A stretch of DNA of 64,000 nucleotides, from NCBI GenBank assembly GCA_963930775.1, contig OZ005705.1, forward strand, positions 4,836,001 through 4,900,000, written 5' to 3'. Each line of letters starts with the position of its first letter. Position 1 is the first letter of the stretch. This stretch comes from Cliona cf. orientalis (Eukaryota; Porifera; Demospongiae; Clionaida; Clionaidae). Shown piece after piece: positions 827 through 25,549 of this stretch. The notes under the pieces were generated by a model. It was not told the origin of the DNA and searched no databases. It worked only from the letters and a program-made list of their open reading frames with translations. Both the position numbers and the translations under genes were made by a program.

Positions 827-3800
827 TTATTTGACTGATAAAAGTCCACTTGTGACACTGCCATCCTCCGATGGACTCTCAATGCGAATCTCAATGCCAG
901 AAGTTGTCGATAGTTGATCCTCCTTCAACTTTCTTATCTTGAGTAGAGGAGAAGCTCTAGGAGAGATGCGTGGAGAGGCTCTGGGAGATGGTCTGGGGGA
1001 TGCTTTGGGTGATGCTTTTGGGGTGCCCCTTGGTGATTTGGATTTCTTCTTGTCCTTTGCCTGTTTGCTGGAGTTGAGTTTTACCAGCAGTTCAGCACTA
1101 ATTAATACATCTTTTTCGTCGGTGGGAGAATCAAGAGTAGTGGCAGCAGGTGAGTCGGTGTTTGTGAGATCATGTGTTGATTTGAAGGGGTTAAAATTGA
1201 TATCAAGGTAACCGGCAATGCATTCTGTGTAGTTAGAGACGGTAGTGACGATCTCAGAGAAAGGTGGTCTCTCGGCGGGCAGCTTGGACCAACACTTCAT
1301 CATTAAAGAATACCTAAATGATACATTATGCATTGTGCAGTGTAGCAAATACCAAATTCAAATGTGATGCAAGTAAATAATATTATAATAATGATGATAC
1401 CACGTACACATCAGTGGGAAATATGATTCCACTACAATTATATGACCAGTAAACCACAATTAGTGGGATAGAAATCTAGTCTACAGGTCCTACACTTAGG
1501 GGTTGTGTCACAGCACACACACACCAATCGTATATTCTTTGGACTGCAAGTCCAAGGTACAGATACGCTTTATTAAGTTATACAGAACCAATTTATATGT
1601 GACCAGCTATGAGAAAAGGGACCATTTGAGAGTTTTTTTTTGTTCATAGTATGTGGCTTGTTGCATGTATGGAGTAATGTATTGTTCATGTAGCTGATCC
1701 GCTCTGCTTGTGCCTATACATGCATAGCTAGGCTGTAGCTACTCACTACCAGCTACATAATTTTATTGAAAGCAAGCTAATTGGGCATAAAAATTGAATA
1801 CTAGCTATCATCGTCCGCAAATGGTCCCTTTTCTCATAGCAGGTCACATATGCTCAATTAGTACCAGGTAGGTATACTGCCTCTGTATGAACAGCTTGAT
1901 CATACCTACCCACTCATAGTTATTAATTGTACTCACATTTCATCCGGGCAAGCTGCATTCAGTGGTTTATTCAATCTCTGTTCAGTGTCTAGCATCTGAG
2001 AGAGCAGCAGAGGGTCCACCCCAGGATAGGGAGTCTTTCCTCCACTGAATATCTCCCAACACGTCACTCCAAATGACCACTATGTGGTGTGAGTATAAAC
2101 ACACATCACATGACGTGCTTATGGTTGAATACATTCCAGCATAGCAATTTGCTGACATTTCAGCCAAGGAAAGTACCAATGGGAGAACTCTCAAGTGCTT
2201 GTAGTACATTAATTGGATTGTGGCTCAGCTAAGGGCTGCATTGTTGCAGCACTGGGTAAACAACTGCTGCCTATCTCACCACAGGTAACTAATGCCAGAC
2301 AATGCTGGAGATAACTGGTCCTCATCTGCCATCAGGTCCACTTCGCTACTCACCAGGCTTACTCAAGTCTTCATGTTACATGCAGAATAAGTGAGGCTGA
2401 GGACGAGGCTAGCTGAAGAGTATAATAGCCTGTTACCCATGCAAGTATAAAGTAATCTGGCAGGAAAAATACAACAATATGAGAGTACACGGAGGGGCTG
2501 GATTATGTGACCATCTGTGAGATAAGGGACCATCTGGGGACTTCTTATTTGCTTGTTATACTATTACTAGACTAGTGTACATGTAATCTGCTCTATGTTT
2601 GTGTTCACTGATACAGTAATGTACGTATACTATAGCTACACTCGTAGAAAGCAAGTTCATACTACCGTCTTCCCCAATAGCTTAATGGTCCCTTTTCTCA
2701 CATACGTAGAAGGTCACATATTATATTGCGCAGAGAAGTTCATGTAGTTACATCCAATTTAGCGAGGAGAATAGGCCTGCATGCCTGGGGACATGGACCG
2801 GCCAAGAGGTGAGACTATTAATTTCAAATTCTGCACTCAGCTGCATGCAAAAACTTTAAACCATATACTCTGCATAGCACTCTGACTGCATGATCTAACA
2901 GGTTTATACTACTACAGACTGAAACCTACCACATCTGACTTCTCTGAGAACACACCATCAGAGAGACTCTCAGGCGCCATCCATTTGACAGGAAGTTTAA
3001 TGGACTTGTCTGATCCACTCTGCCTGAAGTAATTCTTGGCATAGACATCTTCAGAAAGACCAAAATCAGCAATCTTTATCACAAAGTGAATGTCAATCCT
3101 GCACATCGAAAACCAGTATGAATTCCCTTATATTATTCCATTGTGAGAACACTCACATGCAGTTCCTTGCAGCGAGGTCTCTATGGACAAATTTCTCTCC
3201 AGCAAGATACTCCATCCCACTGGCTATTTCCAAACACATTACAGTCATTCTCTTCCGCACATCAACTTTCTAAATGAATAAAGGGAGATTAATACTAGTA
3301 CAGTTACCTTTGAAAACACATAGGTGAAACATATACGTTCAGCAATAGGATATACCGTACTTCGATAAGACACATTGGTACGCTTGATTGGAGCATGTAT
3401 CATGCATAGCACACAAACAATACAACGGCTAAATAATTATAGTACGACAGGTGTTTTCTGCATGTGTGTTTACATCCTATAAACATAGTGTACATGTGCG
3501 AATCCTTATATTGGAACAATCACTATTGATGCTATCACTCACCACATCATCATCAACTCCAACTGGTAGTACTAGATTGTTTCTCTCTTTCTTGAGGTAG
3601 TGGAGGAGGCTCCCATTGGCCATGTAGGGCATCACCACATAGGGAGCTGGACCTGCGTCCAGGCACACACCAATCAGGTGGAGGACATTGGGATAATCAA
3701 AGTGCTTCATTTTGATGCTTTCCTCCATAATCTTGTTCACTTGACTGTTGTCGAAGAAACCTGGGTTGAATGTCAACTCCACACTGCAGGTGCTGCCGTC

Positions 3801-24800: not shown

Positions 24801-25549
24801 ATAATAATTATTATCATGCCTTGTGCATGACATTGTGCTGTGAAAACTGCTCACAAGTAACTATTGTATTCCTTGCTATGCTAGCTTAGCCTAGCTAGAC
24901 GTCTATAATATTATTATTTTGATTATTATGGCTATGCCTATAAGCTACCTTTGTCCTTAATTTTATTTAGCTAAAATAGCCATGCATAGGTAGGATTTCA
25001 ATTAATAATAATATCTCCTGCAACTGTAGGTATTCCTTAATGAGGAGCTGCTGGTTGAAAAAGCCTCAGGAAAGACCCTTTTTCAGTGATGTAGTCAAAA
25101 CCATCTCCAACTATACAGAAATTATTGCTGGCTATCTAGATATAAACTTCAACCCCTTTGAGTCCTCCTACAGCCCAACCGGCTCTGCTGCTCTCACTAC
25201 CATTCCAGATTCTCCGGATAGTGAACAGAATGTTTTAGTCAGCTCAGAGCTACTGAGAAATCTGATCCAGGAGGACTCCAAACAGGCTAAGCCATGCAAC
25301 AAGAAACAGAAATCACCGAAGAGCACCCCAAAAGCTTCTCCAAAGATGTCCCCCAAGGTGTCCCCCAGACCATCTCCCAGCGGGACCTCTCCACGCATCT
25401 CCCCTAGAGCTTCTCCTCTACTCAAGATAAGAAAGTTGAAGGTAGATCATTCACCTACAACTTCAGGAGCAAAGATTGAAATTTGCGTTGAGAGTCCATC
25501 AGAAGAAGGAAGTGTTACATCCTCCAATGGATTGCTGTCTGTGACATGA
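18812..25549 (+). CDS. RTK-B: SRCR(x4)-Frizzled CRD receptor tyrosine kinase
   Basis: Paralogue of RTK-A with the same domain order. Exons (plus): 18812-18881, 18979-19161, 19228-19410, 19485-19649, 19737-19940, 20000-20164, 20858-21034, 21107-21268, 21326-21508, 21564-21648, 21707-22116, 22224-22431, 22538-22671, 22878-23027, 23107-23199, 23275-23492, 23552-23664, 23840-24008, 24596-24738, 25030-25549; total 1244 residues, in frame. Signal peptide [20 protein letters not shown]; four two-exon SRCR domains; ten-cysteine Frizzled-like CRD in exon 11 ([11 protein letters not shown]); membrane helix [19 protein letters not shown]; kinase with [37 protein letters not shown] and MAPES, so catalytically competent in appearance. 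The tail has SPK/SPR repeats and ends NGLLSVT. Intron 6 starts with GC and carries an inverted-dimer SINE. It has one intron fewer than RTK-A, the stalk and membrane helix being one exon. Ligand unknown. Confidence 0.9.
20193..20795. mobile_element. Inverted-dimer tRNA-derived SINE in RTK-B intron 6
   Basis: Two nearly identical arms (20190 to about 20470 and about 20476-20750) are reverse complements around a 5-6 base loop. Each arm has a tRNA-like head: right arm about 20627-20700, with box A TAGCTCAGTTGGGAAGAG, an anticodon stem TCTGA/TCAGA around a seven-base loop, and box B GGGTTCAAATTCC; left arm is the mirror image at about 20240-20314. The left arm has about 11 extra bases near 20360. 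The whole insertion is flanked by the 13-base direct repeat TAGCTATGTCTTA (20180-20192 and 20796-20808), as expected for LINE-driven retrotransposition. Confidence 0.88.
20626..20701 (+). ncRNA. tRNA-like head of SINE (right arm)
   Basis: It folds as a degenerate cloverleaf: acceptor strands GGGCCCA and TGGATCC pair with a mismatch and a G-T pair, the anticodon stem TCTGA/TCAGA is perfect, and the T arm CTGGG/TCCGG has wobble pairs. The apparent anticodon is AGA, but position 37 is T. This is best read as the Pol III promoter part of a SINE, not a working tRNA. Confidence 0.6.

Follow-up and report, generated by a model that had tools for sequence, protein, structure and literature searches.

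ROR1, ROR2 and MuSK are single-pass receptor tyrosine kinases with a Frizzled-type CRD. Other receptor tyrosine kinases have different ectodomains, which comprise Sema, PSI and IPT domains in MET and Ig and FN3 domains in the TAM receptors. According to the introduction of one paper, ROR proteins are conserved from sponges to humans, and passages of the same paper report that the CRDs of ROR2 and MuSK lack a Wnt-lipid groove, while ROR2 still binds WNT5A, but more weakly (PMC11219042). Sponge receptor tyrosine kinases with Ig domains have been reported to increase upon grafting (PMC2248247). In a publication covering receptors of Halichondria panicea, the legend of Figure 1 lists SR, FZ and TyrKc among sponge receptor domains (PMC8242945); the likeness to the genes described below lies in this list of domains. 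No text describing an SRCR-CRD-kinase architecture was found in the consulted passages of open-licence papers.

The window analyzed here, a 64,000-nucleotide stretch of DNA from the sponge Cliona cf. orientalis, contains two genes (A and B), whose predicted proteins share 67% identity. In both, a predicted signal peptide is followed by four SRCR domains, a CRD of the Frizzled type, a single transmembrane (TM) segment, the complete tyrosine kinase and finally a tail. The first-pass annotation of this DNA had proposed the SRCR4-CRD-TM-kinase part of this order for both genes, and splice models combined with Pfam searches reproduced it together with the exact protein lengths of 1229 and 1244 residues. 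The models were built on splice signals and paralogue conservation. All introns are of the GT-AG type except for one GC-AG intron at an equivalent site in both genes. Each SRCR domain is encoded by two exons, and the stalk of B has one intron fewer than that of A. Window positions 827 and 25549 are the stop codons of A and B, respectively. On balance, we favor the view that A and B, as modeled here, are both complete and belong to a family of clustered receptor tyrosine kinases. The cluster (C17) consists of five copies, which are A, B, two complete upstream copies (C and D), and copy E located ~170 kb downstream. The features are as follows.

827..7893, minus strand: gene A, 21 exons encoding a predicted receptor tyrosine kinase of 1229 aa (splice model, Pfam)
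7893-7818, 7732-7550, 7276-7094, 7025-6852, 6786-6613, 6557-6393, 6342-6151, minus strand: gene A exons 1-7 (splice model)
6079-5924, 5860-5687, 5609-5525, 5456-5053, 4985-4923, 4862-4709, 4314-4184, minus strand: gene A exons 8-14 (splice model)
4122-3970, 3914-3822, 3760-3543, 3269-3157, 3098-2930, 2079-1937, 1313-827, minus strand: gene A exons 15-21 (splice model)
7818..7893, minus strand: gene A exon 1, predicted signal peptide (hydrophobic window, residues 1-23)
7094..7732, minus strand: gene A SRCR1, two exons (splice model, Pfam)
6613..7025, minus strand: gene A SRCR2, two exons (splice model, Pfam)
6151..6557, minus strand: gene A SRCR3, two exons with the GC-AG intron between them (splice model, Pfam)
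5687..6079, minus strand: gene A SRCR4, two exons (splice model, Pfam)
5053..5609, minus strand: gene A Frizzled-type CRD, two exons (Pfam, exon-level Fz search, PDB sequence search)
4709..4985, minus strand: gene A stalk and predicted TM segment (hydrophobic window 676-714)
827..4314, minus strand: gene A juxtamembrane region, kinase (Pfam residues 815-1091) and SP-rich tail (splice model, Pfam)
6386..8070, minus strand: block of exons and introns that A has in common with D, an upstream copy (88.4% in an alignment of 1716 columns)
5058..6084, minus strand: block of SRCR4-CRD exons and introns that A has in common with E, the downstream copy (81.4% in an alignment of 1039 columns)
18812..25549, plus strand: gene B, 20 exons encoding a predicted receptor tyrosine kinase of 1244 aa (splice model, Pfam)
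18812-18881, 18979-19161, 19228-19410, 19485-19649, 19737-19940, 20000-20164, 20858-21034, plus strand: gene B exons 1-7 (splice model)
21107-21268, 21326-21508, 21564-21648, 21707-22116, 22224-22431, 22538-22671, 22878-23027, plus strand: gene B exons 8-14 (splice model)
23107-23199, 23275-23492, 23552-23664, 23840-24008, 24596-24738, 25030-25549, plus strand: gene B exons 15-20 (splice model)
18812..18881, plus strand: gene B exon 1, predicted signal peptide (hydrophobic window, residues 3-22)
18979..21508, plus strand: the four SRCR domains of gene B, encoded by eight exons (splice model, Pfam)
21564..22116, plus strand: gene B Frizzled-type CRD, two exons (Pfam, exon-level Fz search, PDB sequence search)
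22224..22431, plus strand: gene B stalk and predicted TM segment (hydrophobic window 680-718)
22538..25549, plus strand: gene B juxtamembrane region, kinase (Pfam residues 819-1096) and tail (splice model, Pfam)

Both proteins have the sequence hallmarks of a receptor tyrosine kinase, namely a signal peptide, a single TM segment and a kinase with catalytic motifs starting with GxGx. Pfam detected four SRCR stretches (PF00530) per protein above the curated cut-off (E = 1.8e-79 in A and 1.1e-81 in B) and a tyrosine kinase (E = 7.5e-83 in A and 9.2e-84 in B), which was indeed intact as initially described. With a Pfam limit of E 0.1, no Ig, kringle, Sema/IPT or FN3 domain was detected in A or B. 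The Fz match of the whole proteins remained just under the curated cut-off of 32.1 bits (E = 6.4e-07 and 30.4 bits for A; E = 3.3e-07 and 31.3 bits for B), whereas the CRD exons exceeded it in an exon-level genome search, with scores of 37.2 (A) and 38.1 (B). The domain, which had been annotated as a ten-cysteine Frizzled-like CRD, is thus of the Frizzled type, but the cysteine count has to be corrected to 11 invariant cysteines in the main CRD exon across the five cluster CRDs.

When an eight-row CRD alignment was compared with all PDB sequences, all five matches up to E 10 were ROR2 or MuSK. ROR2 came first, with the strongest E-value obtained (6.8e-9), and MuSK followed; this alignment includes three hand-joined rows with uncertain junction residues from CRD-TM-kinase genes on C19 of the same genome. 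With the five cluster CRDs alone, ROR2 ranked first (E = 6.8e-4) and MuSK was absent. Exon 11 of B alone matched ROR2 (E = 1.3e-4), followed by ROR2 and MuSK at E-values from 0.018 to 0.051. Other PDB matches in these two C19-free searches had E-values of 0.44 and above and were unrelated. Judged by sequence, ROR2 is the closest solved structure to the CRD and MuSK the second closest. Structure prediction for the CRD exon (AlphaFold, two aligned rows) gave a mean pLDDT of 42 and was uninformative on the fold. No relatives of the CRD were found in prokaryote genomes and viral contigs, as expected of an animal gene.

The kinase had a different affinity. After a two-domain EGFR entry, the best PDB kinase scores were obtained for MET (222.9 bits) and AXL (217.3 bits), with identities over the kinase of 46% and 44%, respectively, compared to 34-35% for ROR1, ROR2 and MuSK. 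In an 18-row tree, INSR, ROR1, ROR2, MUSK and TRKA formed a group (support 99/99) with the sponge rows outside, and the support for a placement beside MET or AXL was weak (48/27). The kinase is nearest to MET/AXL by score and lies outside the INSR/ROR/MuSK/TRKA group; because of the latter, A and B cannot be regarded as ROR/MuSK relatives as a whole. The earlier comparison with ROR and MuSK applies to the CRD and does not extend to the kinase. By human standards, the receptor would be a chimera of a ROR2/MuSK-near CRD and a kinase nearest to MET/AXL in score. In contrast to ROR and MuSK, A and B carry four SRCR domains and neither Ig nor kringle domains; with MET/RON and AXL/MER they share kinase likeness but no ectodomain; and unlike the scavenger and pattern-recognition proteins of the SRCR superfamily, which have PF00530 in common with them, their SRCR domains are joined to an intact tyrosine kinase. 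In this comparison, a Frizzled-type CRD on a tyrosine kinase is a ROR/MuSK trait and SRCR arrays are a scavenger-type trait, and A and B combine both on a kinase that is not of the ROR/MuSK group.

The expanding family suggested by the first-pass annotation was supported within this one genome, where the five cluster copies go beyond the two initially noted. The SRCR4-CRD-TM-kinase architecture occurs in four of the five copies (A, B, C and D). Copy E shows SRCR4-CRD, and a kinase was not found within 13 kb. The signal-peptide window of D, whose model lacks the first residue, was below the threshold. Binding modules are exchanged between the copies while the kinase stays alike. The block shared by A and D extends from 5' of the start codon into the first half of SRCR3, and dS between these copies was 0.12 in SRCR1-2 and 0.81 in SRCR3-CRD (p = 2.7e-16). 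For C and E, dS was 0.09 in SRCR1-3 against 0.81 (p = 6.1e-22), and for A and E 0.25 in SRCR4-CRD against 0.74 (p = 3.2e-8). In all six pairs of A-D, dS of the kinase was lower than that of the ectodomain (0.19-0.36 versus 0.47-1.03; p from 7.3e-6 to 1.1e-11). These p values, for module exchange as well as for the kinase, are descriptive, as the domain splits were picked after viewing the table of pairwise comparisons. As a control, kinase dS between the cluster and the related kinases on C19 or C16 was saturated (1.85 to not computable), so that the kinase codons as such are free to diverge. Part of the low dS in the kinase may stem from recent common ancestry of its exons and not from repeated conversion. 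Positive selection on the recognition modules was considered and found unsupported, with dN/dS below 1 in every computable comparison.

Taken as a whole, we lean toward a family of SRCR4-CRD-TM-kinase receptors with module swapping and a constant signalling output. We infer that these receptors most likely recognize a variety of ligands, which may be microbes or particles, and translate this into tyrosine phosphorylation. Once the SRCR array and the CRD engage a ligand, the receptor would cluster or rearrange, the kinase would cross-phosphorylate, and the tail may recruit signalling and endocytic adaptors via two conserved motifs, Y-[LI]-D-[ILV] and NPF. SRCR and CRD swaps between neighbours would then alter recognition at constant signalling output. 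Microbial or particulate surfaces as the likeliest inputs are our guess from the domain type, in analogy to other SRCR proteins, and from the diversity pattern. The mosaic cluster would offer a direct test of varied recognition combined with constant signalling. The joining of both domain types to one kinase makes it possible to ask if tyrosine kinases of animals were once directly connected to the recognition of microbes or particles. A more far-reaching version, which we regard as doubtful, is a sponge class in which neighbours reshuffle SRCR domains and a ROR/MuSK-type CRD by recombination, conversion maintains a MET/AXL-like kinase, and the kinase-less copy acts as a soluble decoy. If true, the animal could vary recognition without changing the signal.

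That ROR2 and MuSK are the closest solved CRDs would also suit a developmental or adhesion receptor, whose CRD would recognize, like those of ROR2 and MuSK, a conserved ligand of the animal itself (Wnt-like or matrix), with the SRCR domains as spacer or co-receptor site and the copies as tissue- or stage-specific duplicates. The stated conservation of ROR from sponges to humans (PMC11219042, introduction) and the computable dN/dS values, all below 1 as expected of conserved binding, agree with this explanation. However, the kinase does not fall into the ROR/MuSK group, the CRD identity of 52-73% among A-E is low for one fixed ligand, and Wnt-lipid binding cannot be assumed given the groove-less CRDs and weaker WNT5A binding described in the cited passages (PMC11219042), so that we consider a developmental role possible but somewhat unlikely. 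Clustered genes that exchange modules but keep a uniform signalling domain are a general pattern of allorecognition loci, which the present cluster resembles. Mosaic ectodomains that vary between individuals could trigger a kinase response on graft contact, and the reported rise of sponge Ig-domain receptor tyrosine kinases after grafting (PMC2248247) fits such a role. With only four to five copies and no positive selection seen in the one genome, this appears improbable.

It is very improbable that the SRCR/CRD exons and the kinase exons are separate neighbouring genes joined by prediction. The joins do rest on predicted models, and SRCR exons are very common in the genome (at least 172 matches from the 150 candidates scored out of 2082). 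Yet the domain order and the intervening TM exon recur in four copies, as do the intron phases all the way from SRCR1 to the kinase, and the ectodomain modules of these copies show sequence differences of up to about 48%. The family of receptors with swapped modules and a constant output remains our preferred reading.

Related genes with parts of this architecture occur in the same genome, in which the number of kinase exons is a lower bound (150 of 1400 candidates scored). CRD-TM-kinase genes are located at C19:646-664k, and no SRCR domain was detected in the stretches examined. Their CRDs (three genes aligned) resemble the cluster CRDs in a C-terminal CC-x-DAG extension, and their kinases fall into one group with the cluster kinases (98/98). 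An SRCR5-TM-kinase gene lies at C16:5724001-5734000, with no CRD in the stretch examined; its kinase is sister to the cluster kinases (96/95), and a tail motif with NPF is common to both. An apparently early-branching animal with related CRD-only and SRCR-only kinases may serve as a test case for the assembly of receptor tyrosine kinase ectodomains. An Fz match at C16:5734968, upstream of the SRCR5 kinase on the same strand, was considered as a third architecture, but this reading was dropped. By eye, several hydrophobic membrane segments of Frizzled-like appearance come after the Fz exon, and beyond them the SRCR5 gene starts with a signal-peptide-like exon; we therefore treated the Fz exon as a separate gene.

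Within the window, A and B are arranged head-to-head, as originally annotated, and are 10.9 kb apart. The gap between them contains LINE-like fragments and an unrelated ORF of 1319 aa.

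The two head-to-head receptor genes of the window (C17:4836001-4900000, in a genome of 216.8 Mb and 149 contigs) were modelled as listed below, in agreement with the protein lengths and outer ends that the first-pass annotation had claimed.

Receptor gene models
7893 to 827, minus strand: gene A, splice model of 21 exons, 1229 aa
18812 to 25549, plus strand: gene B, splice model of 20 exons, 1244 aa

The A and B proteins share 67% identity, and both have a hydrophobic N-terminus and a single strong transmembrane (TM) window. The claimed SRCR4-Fz-tyrosine kinase order was recovered by Pfam: each protein matched SRCR in four stretches, then Fz and then a tyrosine kinase. 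The Fz assignment of the cysteine-rich domain (CRD) held for the individual CRD exons (37.2 bits for A and 38.1 bits for B; Pfam cut-off 32.1), but the whole proteins scored slightly below the cut-off (30.4 and 31.3 bits, respectively). A GC-AG intron (intron 6) is located inside SRCR3 at an equivalent position in A (6392-6343) and B (20165-20857).

A genome search with the CRD of B, in which all 23 candidates were scored, retained 17 matches: five copies on C17 (A-E), exon 10 of B, four copies on contig C19, and seven weak matches (E 0.001 to 0.07). The proposed expanding family is supported, within this genome, by five C17 copies rather than the pair of complete genes first noticed. Spliced alignment revealed the complete SRCR4-CRD-TM-kinase order in copies C (C17:4811-4821k) and D (C17:4821-4836.5k). 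In a control for this procedure, B was rebuilt from A: both boundaries were exact for 18 of the 20 true exons, the first exon was incorrect, the last stopped 6 bases early, and one small spurious exon appeared. In the copy C model, exon 1 and the tail are uncertain, and the signal window of copy D was below threshold. Copy E (C17:5031-5044k; C17:5031001-5044000) contains four SRCRs and a CRD, and the 13 kb stretch examined yielded no kinase. Without use of a GC donor, its CRD exon would reach a stop eight codons further on. Copy E may code for a soluble form. Three modelled C19 genes have a CRD-TM-kinase order, with no SRCR found in the stretches covered; one of them, F19b, contains an in-frame stop near the stalk that may stem from faulty modelling. 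In the fourth C19 copy, CRD and kinase exons lie within 3.3 kb. A gene on contig C16 combines five SRCRs with a related kinase, with no CRD found in the stretch covered. A further CRD lies beside a more distant kinase at C13:499962-503183, where the partial model contains a stop; this locus is possibly a separate Fz-kinase lineage in the genome.

The CRD was compared with all PDB sequences using an eight-CRD profile (A-E and three C19 CRDs joined by hand), the five cluster CRDs, and exon 11 of B. The profile matched five distinct sequences at E ≤10, all of them ROR2 or MuSK (best 6.8e-9). The cluster CRDs gave six matches, two to ROR2 (6.8e-4 and 0.38) and the others to a mitochondrial ribosomal protein (E of at least 0.83), and exon 11 gave 13, comprising ROR2 (1.3e-4, 0.018), MuSK (0.049, 0.051) and unrelated proteins (E of at least 0.44). 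ROR2 gave the best match in each of the three lists, MuSK was present in two of them, and Frizzled and secreted Frizzled-related proteins were absent from all three; the CRD is thus most like the receptor tyrosine kinase type. The earlier description of a ten-cysteine Frizzled-like CRD therefore stands as to the Frizzled type, here RTK-like, but not as to the count, because the main CRD exon contains 11 invariant cysteines in all five cluster rows. The CC-x-DAG end of the cluster CRDs is also present in the three C19 rows. A structure model of the CRD was of too poor quality for use.

Against the PDB, the kinase scored highest with an EGFR entry containing two domains (146.8 bits for each), followed by MET (222.9) and AXL (217.3). 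In an 18-row tree, in which EGFR formed a long branch and the partial C13 kinase was left unplaced, the eight complete kinases of the C17, C19 and C16 loci formed a single group (support 98/98), with the C16 SRCR5 kinase adjoining the C17 cluster (96/95); a link of the sponge kinases with MET or AXL was unsupported (48/27). INSR, ROR1, ROR2, MuSK and TRKA grouped apart from the sponge kinases (99/99), which places the ROR/MuSK-like CRD, as judged from sequence, on a kinase outside the ROR/MuSK group. This fits the statement in the accessible part of PMC8662651 that the CRD-FZ is older than the Ror/Musk family-specific motifs. No protein uniting SRCR and Fz with a tyrosine kinase was described in the accessible parts of the open-licence literature searched. 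The Figure 1 legend of PMC8242945, the portion available, names SR, FZ and TyrKc among Halichondria panicea receptor domains, and thus the order may already have been drawn there. Neurotrypsin, according to the available text of PMC3927609, likewise has four tandem SRCRs, together with a kringle and a protease.

Synonymous divergence varied along the A-E genes. It was low for A/D over SRCR1-2 (dS 0.12, versus 0.81 over SRCR3-CRD; p = 2.7e-16), for C/E over SRCR1-3 (0.09, versus 0.81 over SRCR4-CRD; p = 6.1e-22), and for A/E over SRCR4-CRD (0.25, versus 0.74 over SRCR1-3; p = 3.2e-8), with descriptive p values, as the domain splits were picked after viewing the divergence table. All three shared blocks include introns, which points to recombination or conversion at the DNA level as their origin. 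The kinase dS of A-D (0.19-0.36 across all six pairs) was lower than that of the ectodomain, and than that of the stalk-TM-juxtamembrane region, in every pair (the latter weakest for A/B, p = 0.028). Kinase dS between the C17 cluster and the C19 or C16 kinases was saturated, and kinase codons are therefore free to change. Several kinase introns were unalignable between copies, with exon-bound blocks 84-97% identical, and some still align, such as the intron that separates exon 18 from exon 19 in A and D. Our reading is that the kinase likeness would reflect conversion, often confined to exons; the alternative is a recent common ancestry of those exons. dN/dS was below 1 in every computable comparison (maximum 0.82, C/E SRCR3; three C-tail comparisons were not computable).

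The tail motifs Y-[LI]-D-[ILV] and NPF are kept in A-D and the C16 gene, and NPF is absent from the single C19 tail inspected. NPF binds EH-domain endocytic proteins, and AXL and MER take part in particle uptake. Together with the scavenger-type ectodomain, these features suggest a receptor for the sensing, and perhaps the uptake, of microbes or particles. The analysis shows the anatomy of the gene models and the divergence pattern; in the proposed mechanism, a ligand would cluster the receptor, the kinases would cross-phosphorylate, and adaptors would be recruited. The main rival is a developmental role via a ROR-like ligand. According to the accessible part of PMC11219042, the CRDs of ROR2 and MuSK are without the Wnt-lipid groove, yet ROR2 retains WNT5A binding, albeit weaker than that of Frizzled CRDs.

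Other features of the window are listed below.

Further features in the window
8820-12803: LINE-like fragments between A and B
8820-9657, plus strand: LINE-like fragment, by eye only
10210-12803, minus strand: LINE-like endonuclease and weak reverse-transcriptase matches (Pfam)
13670-17629, minus strand: open frame of 1319 aa between A and B, beta-helix and Chlam_PMP-type repeats (Pfam)
20239-20314, minus strand: tRNA-Ser (aga) match in outer foldback arm
20626-20701, plus strand: tRNA-Ser (aga) match in outer foldback arm
42961-44451, minus strand: RING/TRAF-type zinc finger/MATH protein
56958-58412, minus strand: RING/TRAF-type zinc finger/MATH protein
53093-53994, minus strand: RING/TRAF-type zinc finger/MATH protein
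44483-45715, plus strand: repeated ORF (369-410 aa) near the RING/TRAF/MATH loci
55020-56129, plus strand: repeated ORF (369-410 aa) near the RING/TRAF/MATH loci

Two of the RING/TRAF-type zinc finger/MATH loci had Pfam matches, and the third was recognized by eye and is split across two frames. The repeated ORFs are 94% alike over 300 nt; that at 44483-45715 had no Pfam match. Hydrophobic segments were seen by eye in the second half of the 13670-17629 frame. The large foldback at 20190-20750, in intron 6 of gene B, has inverted arms of 172 nt (99%) and 104 nt (100%) and looks like a tRNA-derived element in inverted duplicate.
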